The position numbers were made by a program, and so were the translations under genes. A stretch of DNA of 37,809 bases from an uncultured Pedobacter sp. (lineage in GTDB: Bacteria; Bacteroidota; Bacteroidia; Sphingobacteriales; Sphingobacteriaceae): assembly GCF_946479715.1 (NCBI RefSeq), contig NZ_CAMLHF010000027.1, positions 1 to 37,809 on the forward strand, read 5' to 3'. The notes below the pieces were generated by a model. The model had not been told where the DNA came from, ran no database searches, and saw nothing but the letters and a program-made list of their open reading frames with translations. Positions 3,504 to 25,162 of the stretch are shown here, in pieces (the first letter of the stretch is position 1; every line of letters begins with the position of its first letter).

Positions 3504-4207
3504 TGATCAGGAAAATGAAGAATTTATTTAGAAACATATTAACGGTAGCCACTATTGCTACTTTAATTTCCGGATGTTCTCTTGCAGGTCTGGACTTGCA
3601 GGAAAACTACGATAGGGTTCCGCATACTGTAGACCCAAAGATCTATAAAAGCACATGGCAGTACCTAAAGGATAGATCCAGAGGAACCAATAGCGAGGCA
3701 AGGATATTTGACAGGATGATGGAAGCTATTGAGTATTCCGAAATAGATACAAACGAGTACAAAAAACCTAACCGAACATTTATACTACTAAATAACGGAG
3801 CTGTTACCGGTGCAAACTTTTGGGGTACTTATAAAATAAATGGCAAGGTTGCCACCAAGTGGGATGATTATCCTAAAGAGTTCGTGAAAAATTACCTTTT
3901 GTACCTTATAGTTGAGGGACAGCATGATCATTTTACTATTCCCGCACTTCAAACAATAGAAGGTAGTACACTGGCACCTAAAGGTTACTGGAATCAGTTA
4001 CCGGCAGGTATTACTTCAACCAGTGTTTTTATACCTAACCCTAATTCTATTATGACCATTAAGGTGCTTAATTCATCTCCATCCAATACCTCAGATTATC
4101 CAATTGTATTGAATGAGATATTGAATGTTAGAACCAGTAGTATACAAGCTACAAATGGCTCTGTGCATGTAATTGGGGGAGTATTAACCACAAGTATTCC
4201 TGAGTAG
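3503..4207 (+). CDS. PUL-associated lipoprotein, possible FAS1-like (fasciclin) fold
   Basis: A 234-residue protein with a lipoprotein signal (lipidated Cys at residue 25, LISGC). The body contains YKSTWQYLKDRS, then FDRMMEAIEYSEIDT, then RTFILLNNGAV, then a helix KEFVKNYLLYLIVEGQH. This order (helix, an 'aptotic' hydrophobic strand with TFxLLNNxA, then a second helix with a leucine-rich stretch) resembles fasciclin/FAS1 domains found in some Bacteroidota PULs, but the match is weak. Its position directly after susD is where surface glycan-binding proteins (SusE/SusF analogues) are usually encoded, so a surface binding role is inferred. ATG at 3503 overlaps the susD stop; a second Met at residue 5 could also serve as start. 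No catalytic motif is recognised. Confidence 0.75.
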   Translation: MIRKMKNLFRNILTVATIATLISGCSLAGLDLQENYDRVPHTVDPKIYKSTWQYLKDRSRGTNSEARIFDRMMEAIEYSEIDTNEYKKPNRTFILLNNGAVTGANFWGTYKINGKVATKWDDYPKEFVKNYLLYLIVEGQHDHFTIPALQTIEGSTLAPKGYWNQLPAGITSTSVFIPNPNSIMTIKVLNSSPSNTSDYPIVLNEILNVRTSSIQATNGSVHVIGGVLTTSIPE

Positions 4208-4239: not shown

Positions 4240-6708
4240 TTGATAAAAGTGAAAAAATACAGACTGATACTTTTTTTAGGATTGCTGATTTGCAACCAAT
4301 ACTTATTTGCACAACAAAAACAACGTTTAACTGGAAACTGGGAATATTTAAAAGGCGACCTGGGAGGCGTTTGGGAGGCAGTAAGGCCTGTTAAGGAAGG
4401 CAATCCGGAAAGTGTTCCGTTTTGGCAAAAGGTTACGCTACCACATTGCTTTAATGCTACTGATGCGGTAGATCCTGATGTGAATTACTATCAGGGGCCA
4501 GGTTGGTATCGTACGCAGCTAACAATTGCGAACCCGTACCAAAAGGGGAGAACTTTGCTTCACTTTGAGGGAGCCGGACAAAAAACGCAGGTTTACATCT
4601 ACAACAAAAAGGTAGGTGAGCATGTTGGCGGCTACGATGAATTCACTATTGATATAACCGATGAGGTGGAGGCCTTCAAAAAAAATGAAGTCTTTCAAAA
4701 GGAATTTAAAGGTAAAATTCCTGTAGAAATACGCTGCGACAATTCAAGGGATCTGGAAATGATCCCTTCAAGCCTATCCGATTTTAATGTATATGGTGGT
4801 TTGTACCGCTATGTAAACCTGGTTTATACCCCACAAGTATCTTTAGATAAGGTATTTGCTAATGCAAGTGTTGATGCAAAAGGTAATGCTGGTAAATTAA
4901 CTTTAGCGGCCAGGTTATTAAATCCGGATGGGATTGATACGATTTCTGTAAAGATTGACCTTAAAGATCCGCAGGGCAATGTAATCTCGAGCTGGAAAAA
5001 GGAGATCAAGGCTTTTACAGGCGATAAGATGCTTTGGGATACTGTGGTTAAAAATCCAAAGCTCTGGTCTACCGATCAACCCAACCTCTACACCATTGAA
5101 ACTACAGTGAGCGCTAAGAATGATATAAGTGTTCACCAGGAAAAGATCGGCTTCAGAAATTTCGAATTCGTAAAAAAAGGCCCCTTTATGCTTAATGGTA
5201 AAAGATTGCTGTTAAGAGGAACACACCGGCACGAGGATCATGCTGGTGTAGCACAGGCTATGACCGAGGACATGATAAAGCAGGAAATGTTGATGATGAA
5301 AGATATGGGGGTAAACTTTATCCGCCTTGGGCATTATCAGCAGTCGAGGATTGTGCTTGATCTGTGTGACAGCCTTGGAATATTGGTGTGGGAAGAGATT
5401 CCGTGGTGCCGTGGTGGTTTAGGCGGCGATACTTATAAAGATCAGGCACGTAGAATGCTTACCAATATGATTGAGCAGCATTATAATCATGCCTCAGTAA
5501 TTATATGGGGGCTTGGCAACGAAAACGACTGGCCAGGCGATTTTAATGAATTTGATAAGGACAAGATCAGGGCTTTTATGAAAGAGTTAAACGACCTTTC
5601 GCATAAGCTTGACCCATCACGGAAAACGGCGATCAGAAGATGCGATTTCTGTAAAGACATTGTTGATGTTTATTCACCTTCTATATGGGCAGGCTGGTAC
5701 CGTGGTATTTACACCGAGTATAAGGAAGCTTCCAGAAAGGAATTTGAAAGTGTAGATCAATTTTTACATCTAGAATGTAATGATAATAGTCACGCAGGCC
5801 GTCATTCTGAGAGTCCGGATAAAGCGTTAAGCTTGGTTAAAACTGGAGTAGGAGCAGATGAAAGAGAGGGCGATGCTTCATTATATGGAGGAAGTGCAAG
5901 GGTATCTAAGGATGGCGATTGGAGCGAAAGCTATATTGTGAACCTGATAGACTGGCATTTAAAAGAGCAGGAATCTATGCCTTGGTTAACAGGTACAGCG
6001 TACTGGCCATTTAAAGATTTTTCTACACCAATTCGTCCGGATAATCCGGTTCCTTATGTAAATCAAAAAGGGGTTGTAGAGAGAGACTTTACCAAAAAGG
6101 AATCTTATTATGTTTTTCAGGCCTATTGGACAAAAACGCCGATGGTACATATCTACGGACATTCATGGCCGGTAAGATGGGGAGATGCAGGAGAGGAAAA
6201 AATGGTTAAAGTATATTCTAATTGCGATGAAGCCGAGCTTTTTGTGAATGGTAAAAGTGTGGGAAAGAAAAAACGAAACATTAAAAGTTTCCCTGCGCTG
6301 GGTTTAAGGTGGATGGTGAAATTAAATGAAGGAACCAATAACTTTAAAGTAGTGGCCACTAAGGATGGTAAGACTGTGACAGATGAGATCAGTCAGCAAT
6401 ACCAAACTGCAAAATGGACTAAACCGGCCAAAATGGTATTAGAAAAAGTGTCAGAAAAAGAAGGGGTTGCAACAATTCAGGTAAAACTGACTGATGATAA
6501 AGGTATATTGTGTCTGGATGCAGCAAATTACATCACCTTTGGCTTAACAGGAGATGGAAGTCTGGTAGACAACCAGGGAACTTCCAGTGGATCAAGAAAA
6601 GTGCAGCTAAGTAACGGGCATGCAATTATTAGTGTAAAACTAAATGGCGGAAAAAGCGTAGTCAGTGTTAAGGCAACTGGAATACCTTCTGCATTTATAG
6701 AACTTTAA
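4240..6708 (+). CDS. Secreted glycoside hydrolase family 2 (beta-galactosidase-type) with C-terminal DUF4982-like domain
   Basis: About 820 residues with a signal peptide ending around FAQQ. The layout is GH2 jelly-roll sugar-binding domain (roughly residues 30-205), Ig-like domain (to about 310), TIM barrel (about 310-630), then an Ig-like domain with the DUF4982 signature (NCDEAELFVNGKS) and a further C-terminal beta domain. The acid/base is Glu428 in IIWGLGNEND; the likely nucleophile is Glu512 in LHLECND. Both are intact. GH2 enzymes remove terminal beta-linked galactose, glucuronic acid or similar sugars; the exact sugar cannot be told. Neither start option is ATG: TTG at 4240 or GTG at 4249. 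GTG gives the more typical MKKYRLILFLG signal peptide and is preferred. The gene abuts GH95 with no gap. Confidence 0.93.
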   Translation: MIKVKKYRLILFLGLLICNQYLFAQQKQRLTGNWEYLKGDLGGVWEAVRPVKEGNPESVPFWQKVTLPHCFNATDAVDPDVNYYQGPGWYRTQLTIANPYQKGRTLLHFEGAGQKTQVYIYNKKVGEHVGGYDEFTIDITDEVEAFKKNEVFQKEFKGKIPVEIRCDNSRDLEMIPSSLSDFNVYGGLYRYVNLVYTPQVSLDKVFANASVDAKGNAGKLTLAARLLNPDGIDTISVKIDLKDPQGNVISSWKKEIKAFTGDKMLWDTVVKNPKLWSTDQPNLYTIETTVSAKNDISVHQEKIGFRNFEFVKKGPFMLNGKRLLLRGTHRHEDHAGVAQAMTEDMIKQEMLMMKDMGVNFIRLGHYQQSRIVLDLCDSLGILVWEEIPWCRGGLGGDTYKDQARRMLTNMIEQHYNHASVIIWGLGNENDWPGDFNEFDKDKIRAFMKELNDLSHKLDPSRKTAIRRCDFCKDIVDVYSPSIWAGWYRGIYTEYKEASRKEFESVDQFLHLECNDNSHAGRHSESPDKALSLVKTGVGADEREGDASLYGGSARVSKDGDWSESYIVNLIDWHLKEQESMPWLTGTAYWPFKDFSTPIRPDNPVPYVNQKGVVERDFTKKESYYVFQAYWTKTPMVHIYGHSWPVRWGDAGEEKMVKVYSNCDEAELFVNGKSVGKKKRNIKSFPALGLRWMVKLNEGTNNFKVVATKDGKTVTDEISQQYQTAKWTKPAKMVLEKVSEKEGVATIQVKLTDDKGILCLDAANYITFGLTGDGSLVDNQGTSSGSRKVQLSNGHAIISVKLNGGKSVVSVKATGIPSAFIEL

Positions 6709-18690: not shown

Positions 18691-20229
18691 TTACTTTACA
18701 CTTCTTGCTTTTAACTGTGCTTTAAACAAAGAAGAAGGCTCTAAACCGGATTGGTTTAAACCTTCCCATTCTCCGCTTTCTTTACCTTCTAAACGACCTT
18801 TTAACTTTTTGCCTCGTAAACCTATTGCGTAGTTCTTTCCTGAAACCCATGGGTTTTGTACGGCTGCGCCTGATACCTGGCAGTTCCATAATACTTGAGT
18901 TACACCCGACCAACCATGTCCGCTGCCCCAATTGCCACGATCTTGTACGTTAATTTCTCCATCGGTATCTATATTGTCGTATAATGTTCCCGAAGCCCAC
19001 CTATGGTGAGGTCCAATATCAGCATGTGTTTTTCTGGATTTGCAGTTGTAAAAAACGTTAGGTCCGTTAACGCGAGCTCCCGTTACATAATCATGGCGCC
19101 CTTCAGTAGTTTCCAGATTCTGGAAAAGGTTTTGCTGACCTTCATTATTAAAAGAATACCTTCTGCCACCTGTAATGATGGATTTTGCATCAAAGCACTT
19201 AGAATTGGTTACAGTTATGTTTTTAGCGCCTGATCTAAGGCTTACACAAGAGTTGCCAAAATAATAAGAACTCACATTCCTTACCCATCCATTTTCAATA
19301 TGATCAAATTCAACTGCAACCCAGGCATGGTCTTCATCAGTATCACCCACAAATTCCGATTCAAAACGTATGTTTTCTATACCGTTTTCGGCTAATCTGC
19401 CTGCGTATTGATATTTGAATACTTCACCACCACCGTATTTTTTATCCATAGACATCACAATCGGGTTGTCCACAGAAATCTTATTTCCGTCAATGGCTGT
19501 TATTTGTCGCTCATAACTAAGGTTGTATTCTTGTGCTGTCCATTGTTTCGTGCCATCTCTGGCAATAATCTGATCCATCTTTAAATCATGAATCCATGCT
19601 TCGGTTCCAGGCCTGAAAACTATTATTCGATCGCCCTTTTTTAAGCCTTCTGATGATACTATATTGAAAGACTTTGCACCTGTAGGTACGTAATCGTCTG
19701 CAATTTTTATCCTGGTGTTTTTTACTTCTGTAACCTTTCCTTTTCCACCTACTTTAATTAAAGATCTTTGACCTTTTCCGGTTGCAATAAGCTTTGTGGC
19801 ATCTCCCTCTCCACGTAAAACGATGCCACTTGTTTGTATAGAAATGGTTCCGGCAATAGAGTAGGTGCCCTTTTTTAGTAAGATGGCGCCTCGGTATCCG
19901 TCTTTATCAGGAGCTAGAGCCGCGACTTCATCTATCACCTGTTGAATTATTTTGCCAGCATCACCTTGAACAGGATTAAGCGTTTTGACTATTCTTATAT
20001 TGGGTATTTCTATTAATCCATGATGATATCCAACATTACTGAAATCGGGGATGGTATTTCCTTTTTCATCAGGGATATAAGTAATGCTGCCATCCTTGTT
20101 TATGGTAAGGAATTTTGACTTCCAAAAAGCGTGGTCATTTTTAAAAGAAATAATAATGGGGTAGATAAACAGACAAGAGCTTATCAGAATAAGATAGAAT
20201 GCGTTTAGTATGTTTTTGTTGCTGCTCAT
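18691..20229 (-). CDS. Secreted right-handed beta-helix protein, candidate polysaccharide lyase or hydrolase of unassigned family
   Basis: A 512-residue protein with an N-terminal hydrophobic segment (residues about 9-27) acting as signal peptide or anchor. A pectate-lyase-superfamily opening follows (DAGKIIQQVIDEVAAL, GYRGAILLKKGTYSIAGTISIQTSGIVLRGEG), then beta-helix coils with repeated aromatic, Asn and Gly positions (WVAVEFDHIENGWVRNVSSYYFG, CVSLRSGAKNITVTNSKCFD). A conserved-looking polar cluster, TEGRHDYVTGARVNGPNVFYNC and IGPHHRWASGTLYDNI, could be an active site. I cannot place it in a named CAZy family. It is convergent with the PUL and presumably has its own promoter; it may supply another activity on the same glycan. 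Substrate and catalysis are unproven. Confidence 0.82.
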   Translation of the reverse strand: MSSNKNILNAFYLILISSCLFIYPIIISFKNDHAFWKSKFLTINKDGSITYIPDEKGNTIPDFSNVGYHHGLIEIPNIRIVKTLNPVQGDAGKIIQQVIDEVAALAPDKDGYRGAILLKKGTYSIAGTISIQTSGIVLRGEGDATKLIATGKGQRSLIKVGGKGKVTEVKNTRIKIADDYVPTGAKSFNIVSSEGLKKGDRIIVFRPGTEAWIHDLKMDQIIARDGTKQWTAQEYNLSYERQITAIDGNKISVDNPIVMSMDKKYGGGEVFKYQYAGRLAENGIENIRFESEFVGDTDEDHAWVAVEFDHIENGWVRNVSSYYFGNSCVSLRSGAKNITVTNSKCFDAKSIITGGRRYSFNNEGQQNLFQNLETTEGRHDYVTGARVNGPNVFYNCKSRKTHADIGPHHRWASGTLYDNIDTDGEINVQDRGNWGSGHGWSGVTQVLWNCQVSGAAVQNPWVSGKNYAIGLRGKKLKGRLEGKESGEWEGLNQSGLEPSSLFKAQLKARSVK

Positions 20230-20396: not shown

Positions 20397-20918
20397 CTAA
20401 TGTTTTCCGTGTCCATGACCATTGCCATGACCGTTTCCGTGTCCTCTTCCACGATCACCTTTCCAGCCTCTGTCATTGCCTTTGTATTTTTTATACTTGT
20501 AAGAATCGTGTCTGTCATAACCTCTTTCTACATAACGTACCTGACGGCTGTAACGAACCGGTTGAGAATGATATGATCTGTATCTGGCATATCTTACCCT
20601 GTGGTCTCTATAATAGCGATATGGCTCAGGTGAGTTAATAACCACCTTATATCCATGGTATAAATCATAGTCTCTGTATCTTGGAGGTAAACCTGCAGAG
20701 AAAGTCCAGTTCCCATTGCTTAAGTAAATAAACTGTCTGGTAGGAACATAATAGTAACTTTCAATATCTGGCATATAATAATAATCGGCATGATCATAAC
20801 CAGATGGCCCCCAGGCAGGCTGAGAACCGATGTTTACGCTAAGGCTAACCTGAGCCTTTGATTTGTTAGGCAAAAACCCGATTGCCGCAAATAATGTTAA
20901 AAATAGTAACTTTTTCAT
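20397..20918 (-). CDS. Secreted Tyr/Arg-rich protein with Gly/His/Asn-rich tail, unknown function
   Basis: The preferred start is ATG at 20918 (MKKLLFLTLFAAIGF), giving 173 residues; a TTG two codons upstream is less likely. The signal peptide ends near SKAQ. The mature protein opens with NIGSQPAWGPSGYDHADYYYMPDIESYYYVP, then RQFIYLSNGNW and a Tyr/Arg-rich section (RYYRDHRVRYARYRSYHSQ). It ends in repeats of Gly-His-Gly-Asn that could bind metal or interact with the cell surface. I recognise this as a type of secreted protein common in Sphingobacteriaceae but know no function. It lies 42 bp after the DUF4382 gene on the same strand and is followed by a terminator, so the two likely form one transcript under the divergent promoter near 21790. 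Confidence 0.82.
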   Translation of the reverse strand: MKKLLFLTLFAAIGFLPNKSKAQVSLSVNIGSQPAWGPSGYDHADYYYMPDIESYYYVPTRQFIYLSNGNWTFSAGLPPRYRDYDLYHGYKVVINSPEPYRYYRDHRVRYARYRSYHSQPVRYSRQVRYVERGYDRHDSYKYKKYKGNDRGWKGDRGRGHGNGHGNGHGHGKH

Positions 20919-20960
20919 AACCAAATGTTTTAAGTGTGTGTTAAAAAATGGTAATAATAA

Positions 20961-21746
20961 TTATTGTAAAGTAACGGTACCTATACTGGTATTCTGACCA
21001 GCTGTGACAGCAACATTAGGAATAGTAGTTTCTGCAAAACCCTCAACAGGTAATATTTTTACAGTATAGTTTCCTGTGGCTAACCCTCCAACAGTAAACA
21101 TCCCTGTAGCATCTGTTACAGTTCCAACGGTATCAGTTCCGGCAATAACCAAAACTTCAGGGTGACTTGTTAATGGTAATACTACTCCAGAAATTAAACC
21201 AGATGTTGCAACGGTAACACCTCTGACAACAGGTTTAAGTATATATTTTCCATTTCCTGTTTCAACAATAGATTTAGCAGCATCAAAGTCAAGAAGCAGA
21301 GAATAAGTAACCCCTGGTACCAATTCAGGATTTTCTGTAAGTTTTACTTTCCATCCAGAGCTTTGTGCACTAGGCGTTTTTAAATCCTGTACCTGACCAT
21401 CAACGACAATGGTGTTATTATCATAAAGTACAAGTCTGATCTCAGTGATTTCACCTGATGGCATCTCGCCAGAGGCAACTAAAATATCTGGTTTACTGGT
21501 TCCAATGCGGAAATCAAGGATATTGAATATTCCATGATCTACATCAAAGGTGTAAGGTTTACCACCCGAAAGCAGAATTACCTGTTTTACATTTAAATTG
21601 ATAGCGTCAAAATCTCCCGGAGCATCAGTCATCCTGATCTCTACCTTAGTAGTGCCAGAAGCCTGACTGTCTTTTTTACAACCTATAAATGATGCTATTG
21701 CAATAACCAATACCATCAGGGTTGTGTAAATTGTTTTGTTTTTCAT
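20961..21746 (-). CDS. DUF4382 lipoprotein with C-terminal carboxypeptidase-regulatory-like beta domain
   Basis: A 261-residue lipoprotein with lipid-modified Cys at residue 23 (FIGC). Residues about 33-175 match the DUF4382 layout: VEIRMTDAPGDFDAINLNVKQVIL, then IFNILDFR, then LPSGEI-type (EMPSGEITEIRLVL), then LKLTEN-type and LLLDFDAAKSI, ending ILKPVVR. Residues about 180-261 form an Ig-like carboxypeptidase-regulatory domain (ATGMFTVGGLATGNYTVKILPV). The function of DUF4382 is unknown; its location is the cell envelope. It starts about 30 bp downstream of a candidate promoter with TTTCAT direct repeats and diverges from a locus that ends in a two-component system, so regulation by that system is inferred. 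Confidence 0.88.
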   Translation of the reverse strand: MKNKTIYTTLMVLVIAIASFIGCKKDSQASGTTKVEIRMTDAPGDFDAINLNVKQVILLSGGKPYTFDVDHGIFNILDFRIGTSKPDILVASGEMPSGEITEIRLVLYDNNTIVVDGQVQDLKTPSAQSSGWKVKLTENPELVPGVTYSLLLDFDAAKSIVETGNGKYILKPVVRGVTVATSGLISGVVLPLTSHPEVLVIAGTDTVGTVTDATGMFTVGGLATGNYTVKILPVEGFAETTIPNVAVTAGQNTSIGTVTLQ

Positions 21747-21780
21747 AGTAGTAGAGTTTTAAATTCTTCAATTAATAACT

Positions 21781-21815
21781 CAAAGCTCAATTCTGAACAT
21801 GAAAACAACATGAAA
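21781..21815 (-). promoter_or_regulatory. Candidate response-regulator operator and promoter for the DUF4382 unit
   Basis: Read on the minus strand, TTTCAT (21815-21810), GTTGT, TTTCAT (21804-21799) make a direct repeat with an 11-bp period, as expected for OmpR-family regulators. Fourteen bases later comes TTTG (21784-21781) inside GAGCTTTG, close to the Bacteroidota -7 motif TAnnTTTG. The transcript start would lie near 21775, leaving a leader of about 30 nt. There is no good -33 element, which suits an activated promoter. The mirror arrangement on the other strand has the same spacing. Confidence 0.6.
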
Positions 21816-21843
21816 TTCAAAAAATAATTTAATTCTTTTCAAA

Positions 21844-21878
21844 TTTCATCTGAATTTCATGTTAGCTAACAACCTTTG
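21844..21878 (+). promoter_or_regulatory. Mirror candidate response-regulator operator and promoter for the plus-strand unit
   Basis: TTTCAT (21844-21849), CTGAA, TTTCAT (21855-21860), then 14 bases, then TTTG (21875-21878) inside AACCTTTG. Repeat period and distance to the -7-like motif are identical to the minus-strand site. The two sites also form a perfect 13-bp inverted repeat (21807-21819 with 21851-21863). The transcript would carry a leader of about 115 nt before the ATG at 22001. A second possible promoter (TTTG 21935-21938, 23 bp, TATATTTA 21962-21969) lies closer to the gene. Confidence 0.6.
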
Positions 21879-22000
21879 TTATAGATATTGAGTGGCGCAG
21901 ATGAACATGAATATGTTTTAGGAGGGGTTGAAAGTTTGCCTCGAAAGAGGTAAACTTTCTTTATATTTACATGATGAGCATTTCAATATATTTACAAACA

Positions 22001-22276
22001 ATGGTCAGACGCTTATTAACTGTAACAGTAGCCATCTGTTTACTTGTCTCGCCCGCATTATCAAATACTTTGGGAACCTCATCTCTGAAATCTTATTATC
22101 AGAAAAAGAAAGGTAAATCTGAACAGGCAGATCGTTCCAAAGGAGACAGGCAAAGACAAGAGGTTAAGGAAGTGCCAAAATCAAGAAAACAACCAAAACC
22201 TGAGGTTGTTAAGCCCAAGGGGAGGCCAGATGTTAAACCCATCAAAGTAAACCGCCCCAAAATTAAAAAGCACTAG
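22001..22276 (+). CDS. Small secreted basic (Lys/Arg/Pro-rich) protein, unknown function
   Basis: ATG at 22001 gives 91 residues: MVRRLLTVTVAICLLVSPALS is a good signal peptide. An upstream in-frame ATG at 21971 would add ten residues (MMSISIYLQT) ahead of the positive start and is less likely; it also overlaps the proximal promoter candidate. The mature part is hydrophilic and strongly basic (QKKKGKSEQADRSKGDRQR, then KQPKPEVVKPKGRPDVKPIK), probably disordered, with no Cys and no known domain. It lies 5 bp before the beta-barrel gene, so the two are probably one unit with the two-component genes. It might contact acidic surface polymers or peptidoglycan; this is speculation. Confidence 0.65.
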   Translation: MVRRLLTVTVAICLLVSPALSNTLGTSSLKSYYQKKKGKSEQADRSKGDRQRQEVKEVPKSRKQPKPEVVKPKGRPDVKPIKVNRPKIKKH

Positions 22277-22281
22277 CCTGT

Positions 22282-23151
22282 ATGAGATTACTATCCCTTA
22301 GTATAATGATTTGCTTGCTAAGTATAAAAGTTAAGGCTCAAAAAGATACCGACTCTACCGAAACAAAGAAAACTACAGTGACTCTAGCCGCTTTATATAG
22401 CAATAATGTTAGTTATTATGGACAAACAACGGCCGAAAAGCTGCCTTATGTACTGGCAAATGCAACGGTAAGATTGCCTGTTGGACTATACTTTTCTGCG
22501 GGTACATATAAACTTTTAAATGTTGGATCAGGCGTTTCCGAAACAGATTTAGGAGTTGGTTATGATCATGATTTTAACGAAAGATTTACAGCCGGAATAG
22601 GTTATAGCCGATCATTCTACCCAAAAAGTTCTCCATTATTACAAGCATCTAATGAGAATAATCTGAATGTAACAGCGGATTATCATTGGCCATGGTTTAA
22701 GAGTTCTTTATCTGTTGATTATGCTTTTGGACAAGAAAGTGATGTGTTTGCAGGTTTAATAAATTCAAAACTAATAGAACTAGGTACGCTATTTAATAAG
22801 GAAGATCTCTTATCCATAGAACCTTCCATAGAAATAGTGGCGGGTACACAGCACTTTCTAAAAACGTATACAGAACAGAAGAACAAAAAGAACAAAGGTA
22901 ATGGCAACAGCAACGGTAATGGCAACAGCAACGGTAATGGGAACGGAAATGGCAATACTACAATAACCACTACTTTGCCGGCAACAAATTTTGAACTTTT
23001 GTCGTACAATTTTAAAATACCATTGAGTTATAGTAGAGCTAGTTACATGGCTGAGGTTAGCTATCAGTTTTCTATTTTAGGTGCAAATGCCATTACTGAA
23101 GCTAAAAGGCAACAATCTTTTATTAGTCTTGGTTTTTATTATCAATTTTAA
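22282..23151 (+). CDS. Outer-membrane beta-barrel-like protein with Gly-Asn repeat loop
   Basis: A 289-residue exported protein (signal peptide ending VKAQ near residue 19). Alternating hydrophobic strands (LYFSAGTYKLLNVG, TDLGVGYDHDF, FTAGIGYSRSF, LNVTADYHW, SSLSVDYAFG, YMAEVSYQFS) and a last strand ending in Phe (FISLGFYYQF) indicate a small outer-membrane barrel. Between strands, residues about 196-228 hold a charged KNKKNKG stretch and then repeated Gly-Asn/Ser-Asn residues (206-225), probably a long loop. The loop is encoded by an 18-bp tandem repeat. Function is not recognised. The gene sits 8 bp upstream of the response regulator gene, so it is probably either sensed or controlled by that system. 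Confidence 0.8.
   Translation: MRLLSLSIMICLLSIKVKAQKDTDSTETKKTTVTLAALYSNNVSYYGQTTAEKLPYVLANATVRLPVGLYFSAGTYKLLNVGSGVSETDLGVGYDHDFNERFTAGIGYSRSFYPKSSPLLQASNENNLNVTADYHWPWFKSSLSVDYAFGQESDVFAGLINSKLIELGTLFNKEDLLSIEPSIEIVAGTQHFLKTYTEQKNKKNKGNGNSNGNGNSNGNGNGNGNTTITTTLPATNFELLSYNFKIPLSYSRASYMAEVSYQFSILGANAITEAKRQQSFISLGFYYQF
22897..22956 (+). repeat. Tandem 18-bp repeat encoding Gly-Asn-Gly-Asn-Ser-Asn
   Basis: Two perfect tandem copies of an 18-bp unit (GGTAATGGCAACAGCAAC) lie at 22897-22914 and 22915-22932, followed by a degenerate third stretch to 22956. The repeat is in frame and changes only the length of a predicted loop in the beta-barrel protein. Copy number could vary by slippage or recombination without breaking the frame. 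Confidence 0.9.
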
Positions 23152-23159
23152 TTGCATAA

Positions 23160-23834
23160 ATGAAAGTACTCATAGTTGAAGATGAAAAAACACTTGCCTA
23201 CGAAATGGAAACCTTTTTAAAGAAGGCATTTTACTTGTGCGACCTGGCACATACCGTAGCACAAGGATTAGAAAAAATTGAAATAAACAGTTACGACTTT
23301 ATTCTGCTTGATCTTGGTTTGCCAGATGGCGATGGACTATCACTGCTGCCAAAAGCAAAAAAACACAATCCAGAAGCTGCATATATTATTTTAACTGCCC
23401 GGGGCAATTTGGAGGATAGGATAACAGGATTAGATCTTGGGGCTGATGATTACCTTGCCAAACCTTTTTCGTTGCTGGAACTCCAATCAAGAATGCAGGC
23501 AATTGCCCGTCGTAAGTTTAATGTTAAGGAAGAAGCAGTCCCGCTTGGAGAATTTAGCATTGATCTTCAAAAGCGCCTTGTTCAATACAAAGAAGAACAA
23601 ATTGAACTGTCGCGTAAGGAATACGATTTGTTAAGCTACCTGTTTCTGCACAAAAACCGTGTTTTAACAAGAATGCAGCTAAGTGAGCACATCTGGGGTA
23701 CTTTTGCTGACGATGACTATGACTCGAACTACATTGATGCACACATAAAAAACATCAGAAAAAAATTAAATTTATGGGGCCCTACTGAGTGGCTCGAGAC
23801 AGTGCGCGGTGTGGGCTATAGAATAAAGAAATAA
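23160..23834 (+). CDS. OmpR/PhoB-family response regulator
   Basis: A 224-residue two-domain regulator. The receiver domain has the acidic pocket Glu7-Asp8, the phosphoacceptor Asp51 (ILLDLGLPDGDG), Thr79 and Lys101 (LAKPFS). The C-terminal winged helix (about 128-224) has the standard motifs LSRKEYDLLSYLFLHKNRVLTRMQL, YIDAHIKNIRKKL and the wing ETVRGVGYRI. OmpR-family regulators bind direct repeats with about 11-bp spacing; exactly such repeats lie in the divergent intergenic region 1.3 kb upstream. The gene begins 8 bp after the beta-barrel gene and is followed 2 bp later by its kinase, forming a typical pair. Confidence 0.96.
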   Translation: MKVLIVEDEKTLAYEMETFLKKAFYLCDLAHTVAQGLEKIEINSYDFILLDLGLPDGDGLSLLPKAKKHNPEAAYIILTARGNLEDRITGLDLGADDYLAKPFSLLELQSRMQAIARRKFNVKEEAVPLGEFSIDLQKRLVQYKEEQIELSRKEYDLLSYLFLHKNRVLTRMQLSEHIWGTFADDDYDSNYIDAHIKNIRKKLNLWGPTEWLETVRGVGYRIKK

Positions 23835-23836
23835 AC

Positions 23837-25162
23837 GTGAAACTATCTGCAAAGCTCATTTACTTCATTACCGGATCTAAACTTGCAATAGTTCTGTTGT
23901 TTATACTTTCTATGCCTTTTTTGGTAGCAAGTATTGCTTCAGAATATACCAATTATTCATTAAGAGATCAGCAGAGGAAGGCGTTAGATAAAGTGCATAA
24001 AGCTGGTATAGACTATTACCTGCAGGGCGATGATAGCTATGGTAGTTATACCATGCTTAAAGAAGAATACGTTGCCATTGAGCCCGCTGCACCGGAGCTA
24101 CTTATTGACACCATAAAAACAGTAGAACGTATTGTGGAGGGGGATACATTGAGTTACCGCGTACTTAACCATACTTTTAAGGCCAAAGACAAAAACTACC
24201 TGCTGGAGATAGGAAAAACTGTAGGTAGTATCAATCAATATAACAAGCCTTTGCAGCGCATAGCCTTATATGTTCTGATGGGGCTAATCGCGTTAACTAT
24301 TGTAATAGACCTTATTTTTACCCGGGTATTGATAAGGCCGCTTGGCAAAATCATAGAAAGCAAACTGCTAAACCGAAAATTTCCTTTTAAAGATCAAAGT
24401 GAGCCTGTAAAAACCACCACCCAGGATTTTAAATATTTAGATGAGTCGCTCATAAGTTTGATGGATCAGATCAATGTTGACTTTGAAAAAGAGCGAGAGT
24501 TTACGGCGAATGCTTCGCATGAGCTAATGACACCGATAAGCATCCTCCAAAACAAGATGGAAAATCTGCTTGCTGATGACCAGATCACCGAAGATGTGGC
24601 AATGCGCATTGTGGGAATGATGAAAACGCTGGACCGGTTAAAGAAAATCTCTTCTTCATTGCTGTTCATTTCCAGAATTGAGAACGATCAGTTTGTAAAA
24701 TTGGCATCTGTAAAACTTGCTGATTTACTGGAAGACATAAAAGAAGAGATTAGTCACAGGTTAGAAGATAAAGACCTTACTTTTATCATTGATATTAAAG
24801 ATAAGGTTACCCTAAAAAATGTGAATCATGATCTTCTTTTTCAATTGTTTTACAACCTGATAAATAATGCAATTAAATACAATATTGAGGGGGGGAGCGT
24901 AACAGTTACTGATGCTGTTAACAAGCAGGGCGACTATCAGGTTTTCATTAAAGATACTGGTATTGGCATTGCCAGTGAAGATATCGACTTTATTTTCGAT
25001 CGGTTTAGAAAAGCCAATTTATCTGAAAACGTGGGTTATGGGCTTGGCCTTTCAATAGTTAAAAGTATTGCAGTATATCATAATATTGATATTCAGGTTA
25101 CATCCATAGTTAAGCAGGGTTCAACCTTTACAATTACTTTTCCAAGGGTAATGTTGGGATAG
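23837..25162 (+). CDS. Sensor histidine kinase, partner of the OmpR-type regulator
   Basis: A 441-residue membrane kinase starting at GTG, 2 bp after the regulator stop. TM1 is about residues 13-34 and TM2 about 144-165, enclosing a periplasmic sensor of about 110 residues with no recognised fold. The dimerisation domain carries the phospho-accepting His228 in NASHELMTPIS. The ATPase domain shows the N box (NLINNAIKYN), G1 (DTGIGIA), F box (FDRF) and G2 (GLGLS). A short linker without an obvious HAMP domain follows TM2. No receiver domain is fused, so it is a simple kinase. Its likely signal is an envelope state, given the neighbouring surface proteins. The ligand is unknown. Confidence 0.95.
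   Translation: MKLSAKLIYFITGSKLAIVLLFILSMPFLVASIASEYTNYSLRDQQRKALDKVHKAGIDYYLQGDDSYGSYTMLKEEYVAIEPAAPELLIDTIKTVERIVEGDTLSYRVLNHTFKAKDKNYLLEIGKTVGSINQYNKPLQRIALYVLMGLIALTIVIDLIFTRVLIRPLGKIIESKLLNRKFPFKDQSEPVKTTTQDFKYLDESLISLMDQINVDFEKEREFTANASHELMTPISILQNKMENLLADDQITEDVAMRIVGMMKTLDRLKKISSSLLFISRIENDQFVKLASVKLADLLEDIKEEISHRLEDKDLTFIIDIKDKVTLKNVNHDLLFQLFYNLINNAIKYNIEGGSVTVTDAVNKQGDYQVFIKDTGIGIASEDIDFIFDRFRKANLSENVGYGLGLSIVKSIAVYHNIDIQVTSIVKQGSTFTITFPRVMLG

Follow-up and report, generated by a model that had tools for sequence, protein, structure and literature searches.

Which protein acts on the gap between the minus-strand DUF4382 gene and the plus-strand regulator unit (21747-21970) of the window, i.e. 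the whole stretch of 37,809 nucleotides analysed here, and what does it do there? Both strands of this gap carry the same arrangement of short repeats. Our preferred reading, to which we assign a probability of about 0.8, is that these are independent operators of the PhoB/PmrA type, which the response regulator encoded at 23160-23834 would use to activate both its own operon and the divergent unit headed by DUF4382.

Genes on both sides of the gap

The divergent unit starts with the gene of a DUF4382 protein (20961-21746, minus strand), which has a carboxypeptidase-regulatory-like domain and a cysteine after a signal-like segment. Its second gene (20397-20918, minus strand) encodes a secreted-looking Gly/His-rich protein ending in the tail HGNGHGNGHGHGKH, which had no Pfam or NCBIfam match and possibly binds metal. 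Adjoining this unit, the protein encoded at 18691-20229 (minus strand) gave a sub-threshold match to DUF4955 (19.9 of 25 bits); among 20 stretches compared, a homologue was present in the nearest relative only.

The first gene on the plus strand (21971-22276) encodes a small basic, secreted-looking protein with the motif VKEVPKSRKQPKPEVVKP, for which no Pfam or NCBIfam family was found. Of 102 loci scanned by regular expression, 59 have a motif like IKEVPKxRxQxKPxxVKP ahead of the regulator (the window was skipped in this count). It is followed by a predicted beta-barrel protein of the outer-membrane type (22282-23151, plus strand), whose structural model (pLDDT 82.6) resembles a wide range of unrelated porins and channels; identity was 5-12% in the 50 matches listed, which name no function. 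The response regulator (23160-23834) and a sensor histidine kinase (23837-25162) come next, both on the plus strand.

With a receiver domain (PF00072, 81.1 bits) and a Trans_reg_C winged helix (PF00486, 80.3 bits), both above the cut-off, the regulator belongs to the OmpR/PhoB family. Against the NCBIfam models it scored 188 bits for PmrA (cut-off 330), 137 bits for PhoB of Bacteroidota (cut-off 270) and 132 bits for RprY (cut-off 370), the last being a regulator from the same phylum. As all scores are below the cut-offs, an assignment as PmrA, PhoB or RprY equivalog was rejected. The kinase matched best the family model of PorY. PorX/PorY come from the same phylum as well, but the score of the kinase, 222 bits, is below the PorY cut-off of 350.

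Two separate sites in the gap

Direct reading and a script both found TTTCAT-N5-TTTCAT-N14-TTTG on either strand of the gap, as the sequence-only reading had described. The putative operator on the DUF4382 side (TTTCAT GTTGT TTTCAT, 21799-21815, minus strand) consists of half-sites at 21815-21810 and 21804-21799, with TTTG at 21784-21781. The one on the side of the regulator operon (TTTCAT CTGAA TTTCAT, 21844-21860, plus strand) has its half-sites at 21844-21849 and 21855-21860 and TTTG at 21875-21878. In both sites the repeat period is 11 bp and exactly 14 bases separate TTTCAT from TTTG, and both are conserved in relatives.

The two sites had also been described as a perfect 13-bp inverted repeat. 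The repeat itself is real, the shared 13-mer being TGAATTTCATGTT, yet it does not make the region a single mirror site. The 13-mer joins the distal half-site of one operator to the proximal half-site of the other and is thus a by-product of the repeated half-sites. One palindromic operator was ruled out, since the start-to-start gap between the mirrored sites ranges from 16 to 204 bp across relatives; these are two separate operators. A possible helical phasing of the two (gaps of 16 and 25-29) is confounded by relatedness of the genomes.

Could such an arrangement arise by chance? Allowing two mismatches, the full pattern has two matches in the whole window, both exact, where 0.06 are expected, and none of 100 shuffled windows gave two. 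This bears out the earlier view that the paired geometry is unlikely to be accidental. The repeats without TTTG behave differently: with one mismatch allowed there are three matches in the window where 0.98 would be expected, and three were also reached in 7 of 100 shuffles. In its exact form the bare repeat is present in 37 of 38 genomes, most of which contain the reversed control as well. Hence the repeats by themselves, which would fit chance repeats or common descent without function, are unremarkable; what is remarkable is their fixed link to TTTG and their conservation.

Conservation at orthologous loci

When 59 genomes near that of the window were searched for the regulator, close orthologues turned up within its genus. 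In total 105 loci were examined: the window, 19 from a first round, 5 named ones and 80 from a second round, in which the 78 regulator loci are a subset of the listed regulator matches. The regulator is present in 103 of them. Three loci of genus g37 (L214-L216) had been chosen because of a strict site. A site was counted when it had at most two mismatches over 16 letters (two hexamers and TTTG), with at most one in TTTG.

The sequence-only reading had set conservation of the repeats upstream of orthologues as its own test beforehand, and conservation was found. Where a divergent DUF4382 or Gly/His-rich gene is present, 66 of 68 loci have sites on both strands, and where such a partner is missing, 29 of 35 loci have one site, counts which, like every other given here, are inflated by relatedness among the genomes. 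The exceptions in the first group are L206, with one site and another of three mismatches, and L070, with none. Among the six loci without a site in the second group, L200, L203 and L204 carry a three-mismatch site upstream of the regulator genes. No convincing site was seen in L212, L233 and L070 among the 103 regulator loci, nor in L068, the short contig of which begins 345 bases before the regulator. Likewise, the more distant locus L073 (regulator 62% identical), which stands outside the 103 and outside the 105-locus screen, has no site, and L018 and L019, also outside the 103, have no exact repeat.

The sites stay with the transcription units even when the gene order differs. All four loci of genus g28 have DUF4382 pointing in the direction of the operon and a single site ahead of it, and the 14 loci examined from genus g37 have one site each. 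Thus the sites precede the units whatever gene leads. In the g37 locus L214, checked with Pfam, the site precedes an ApbE (flavin transferase) gene at 1571-2515, after which come the genes of the small protein, the barrel, the regulator and the kinase. In L055-L057, L156, L158-L164, L166-L168 and L170 the locus takes a second form that lacks DUF4382 and the barrel, and Gly/His-rich and small proteins surround the same mirrored operators. As six genomes (G012, G026, G326, G341, G385, G391) carry both forms, cross-talk between them is possible.

The g28 arrangement is one of the points against chance or mere common descent. The others are that the same site criterion, applied to 447,201 bp of these loci away from the upstream zone, gave no site, and that the bases between and around the half-sites vary whereas the hexamers, the gap and the core stay constant: 58 of 64 minus-side and 62 of 65 plus-side 35-mers are distinct. 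We regard the probability of this explanation as negligible. The sites in the window are a real, conserved and well-defined pair of sequences with the features of OmpR/PhoB-type operators.

Spacing and promoter cores

For the counts of period, offset and columns, L054, L074 and L075, which are near or suspected duplicates, were left aside; they remain within the 103. In 100 loci, 131 exact same-strand TTTCAT pairs have a period of 11, compared with 25 for the remaining periods between 6 and 30 combined. These are direct repeats of about 6 bp in head-to-tail orientation with an 11-bp period, as is typical of PhoB/PmrA-type sites. Sites found without requiring TTTG number 157; in 124 of them TTTG follows at offset 14, while any other offset occurs at most five times; the repeats therefore keep the fixed distance to the core promoter, at the -35 position, that characterizes this type. 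When exact hexamers recurring after 10 or 11 bp were counted de novo, TTTCAT at 11 bp ranked first (14 of 17 orthologue loci; the next best reached 5), and for the nearest paralogous regulator no hexamer repeat was common to two of its 11 loci.

The aligned operator copies number 129, of which 64 are minus-side and 65 plus-side; one of the latter (L187, -1317) is probably a spurious extra. Because the hexamers and TTTG had been used for site selection, their columns are biased and only the other columns count as free evidence. Among these unselected columns, that of the A in nAnnTTTG is unchanged in 127 of 129 sites, and a TT one base after each TTTCAT is conserved, so that the fuller half-site reads TTTCAT-S-TT. 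The reading of the cores as putative -7 elements of the TAnnTTTG type thereby gains independent support. The first T of TAnnTTTG is missing in both window sites and present in 21 of 129 sites.

In the window the -7-like elements, of the form nAnnTTTG, are GAGCTTTG for the DUF4382 promoter (21781-21788, minus strand) and AACCTTTG for the promoter of the regulator operon (21871-21878, plus strand), both from reading and column conservation. According to PMC9723704, TAnnTTTG of Bacteroidota promoters sits at -12 to -5. This places the predicted transcription starts at about 21776 (minus strand) and about 21883 (plus strand) and each operator at approximately -39 to -20.

The sequence-only reading had proposed that a -33 element is missing at both promoters. 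For the regulator operon this holds, with A at the corresponding column in 62 of 65 sites. It does not hold for the DUF4382 side, where a TTG (21808-21806, minus strand) lies within the distal repeat unit 17 bases before nAnnTTTG and G is found at the column in 41 of 64 sites. The distal TTTCAT is mostly followed by GTT[G/C] on the DUF4382 side and by CTTA on the regulator side, and it is the GTTG variant that creates the TTG at this distance. Judged against what we take to be the -33 consensus, the TTG could be a weak -33 element, and owing to the difference between the sides the two promoters may not have the same basal level.

A promoter with its own upstream contact might fire alone, and the TTG thus also speaks for an alternative in which the regulator binds but mainly represses: a dimer over -39 to -20 would exclude the polymerase, and basal transcription would depend on a sigma factor that needs the upstream contact. 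In PMC10294691, PhoB is moreover called a dual regulator depending on the position of its site. However, the position found here is that of the PhoB-activated phoA and phoB promoters, the nearly fixed gap to TTTG is needed for contact with the polymerase and not for blocking it, and the regulator side has no TTG. We therefore consider repression quite improbable and keep to activation.

The regulator gene accompanies the sites

A first strict pattern matched 23 times, in 13 of 38 genomes and always at this locus, and the reversed-pattern control had no match. With a slightly looser pattern, 99 strict sites were found in 60 of 399 genomes of the family, and the reversed control had two matches. 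Ninety of the 99 are within 4.5 kb of the gene of a regulator orthologue. The nine others comprise one each in G081, G287, G266, G214, G121, G159 and G147 and a pair in G233; three sites in two places (G147 and G233) are away from any detected regulator. Since the strict sites cluster at this locus, a large genome-wide regulon was rejected.

The regulator is present in 57 of the 60 genomes with a strict site and in 78 of the 339 genomes without; the corresponding Fisher value of 1.4e-27 is no true probability, as the genomes are related. The three site-bearing genomes without regulator all belong to genus g37. Conversely, 78 of 135 regulator-bearing genomes lack a strict site, and several of those that were fetched have diverged sites. 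That the adjacent regulator is the candidate binder, as had been suggested, finds strong support in this linkage and in the geometry shared with PhoB-activated promoters.

In two stretches without a detected regulator (L192, about 4017-4033, and L193, about 4421-4437), mirrored operators are flanked by a Gly/His-rich gene and, by eye, a gene of AraC-type appearance, near a gene that looks by eye like RND efflux. These sites possibly act in trans.

Could another regulator bind instead, either a paralogous OmpR-type protein with a near-identical recognition helix or a PhoB of the phosphate type? None of the recognition-helix residues S189, N190, I192, D193, K197, N198 and R200 varies among the 103 regulators, but in the sole paralogue aligned (L029, about 53% identical) the helix is nearly the same, so that the helix alone cannot single out this regulator. 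The L029 locus itself holds one site with two mismatches, which passes the site criterion, and TTTCAT is one base away from the pho-box half TGTCAT; in the phoB box of E. coli, one of the two halves even reads TTTCAT. Against this, the 90 strict sites mentioned above follow the gene of this regulator, the 11 paralogue loci contain no exact repeat (a laxer test found only L029 and L030, the latter with three mismatches), and a phosphate regulon would be expected to scatter its sites widely, whereas just 9 of 99 are away from the locus. Binding by another regulator thus has only a small chance, and the 23160-23834 protein is the preferred binder of both operators. The DUF4382 protein, the Gly/His-rich protein, the small basic secreted protein and the barrel can be grouped as a probable envelope regulon, and the operator pair most likely controls a dedicated envelope two-component locus.

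Proposed mechanism and comparison with known systems

From the arrangement of sites and genes we infer binding of the regulator, dependence on phosphorylation, activation and positive autoregulation. The histidine kinase encoded at 23837 would phosphorylate the regulator, and each operator would bind a head-to-tail dimer of it at about -39 to -20 of one of two divergent promoters of the housekeeping type. The dimer would occupy the place of sigma's upstream (-33) contact and recruit RNA polymerase to the nAnnTTTG core. Expression of the regulator's own operon (small basic secreted protein, beta-barrel, regulator and kinase) would thereby be raised, together with that of the divergent DUF4382 and Gly/His-rich envelope proteins.

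The closest parallel in spacing is the pho box. The sites here read TTTCAT-N5-TTTCAT-N10-nAnnTTTG, at the -35 position, and share N5 and N10 with E. coli phoA (TGTCAT-N5-TGTCAC-N10-TATAGT) and phoB (TTTCAT-N5-TGTCAT-N10-CATAAT). Strict spacing to the core elements is expected at PhoB-activated promoters according to PMC10294691. Unlike the E. coli pho box, the sites precede a core of the Bacteroidota type, and two operators stand back to back. The regulator is also nearer to PmrA than to the PhoB of Bacteroidota, both being far below the cut-off.

PmrA not only gave the best NCBIfam score; BasR was also the second-best chain in a PDB comparison. PMC3973317 describes the PmrA box as hexamer-N5-hexamer bound by a head-to-tail dimer. 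The PmrA (BasR) box, CTTAAG-N5-NTTAAT, has the same form as the sites here, the half-site being TTTCAT instead. At the position of Arg201 in PhoB, both PmrA and the regulator have Asn by our reading of the alignment. None of the ten neighbouring genes scanned is a phosphate gene, and genes for lipid A or polymyxin are absent among them as well.

PMC3764172 reports binding of HaeR to its own promoter, and a response regulator of Bacteroidota on its own promoter is therefore not new. The HaeSR paper gave no hit for a direct repeat, a consensus or a tandem. In a literature search, with most subscription papers and the 2007 RprY work outside its scope, no Bacteroidota operator of the OmpR family mapped to single bases came up, nor any description of OmpR-family activation at TAnnTTTG cores. 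Searches for DUF4382, TTTCAT repeats with response regulators, and two-component systems of Pedobacter or Mucilaginibacter found nothing on this system. The operator is thus new within the searched literature, albeit ordinary in kind. Given 129 aligned operator copies of constant spacing, one named gene for the regulator and a pair of target units, activation by a response regulator that replaces the -33 contact becomes directly testable.

A hairpin in the leader of the regulator operon

The leader of the regulator operon contains a hairpin with a 13-bp stem and a GAAA loop (21930-21959, plus strand). Its core, AGTTTGCCTC-NNNN-GAGGCAAACT, is followed by a T-rich stretch and then by the start codon. 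It is possibly an attenuator or an mRNA-stability element. A more extended reading, which we find rather doubtful, would be a self-wired envelope-sensing module, in which the kinase reads the secreted KEVPK-motif protein and the beta-barrel of its own operon, the regulator fires the mirrored operators that replace the -33 element, and the hairpin adds a brake after initiation.

An Rfam scan of 20900-22400 gave no match, and the hairpin is conserved in a subset of relatives and absent in several others. In 18 aligned leaders, selected for the presence of the hairpin, 98.3% of the cells pair, and two-sided changes are found in three of ten pairs.
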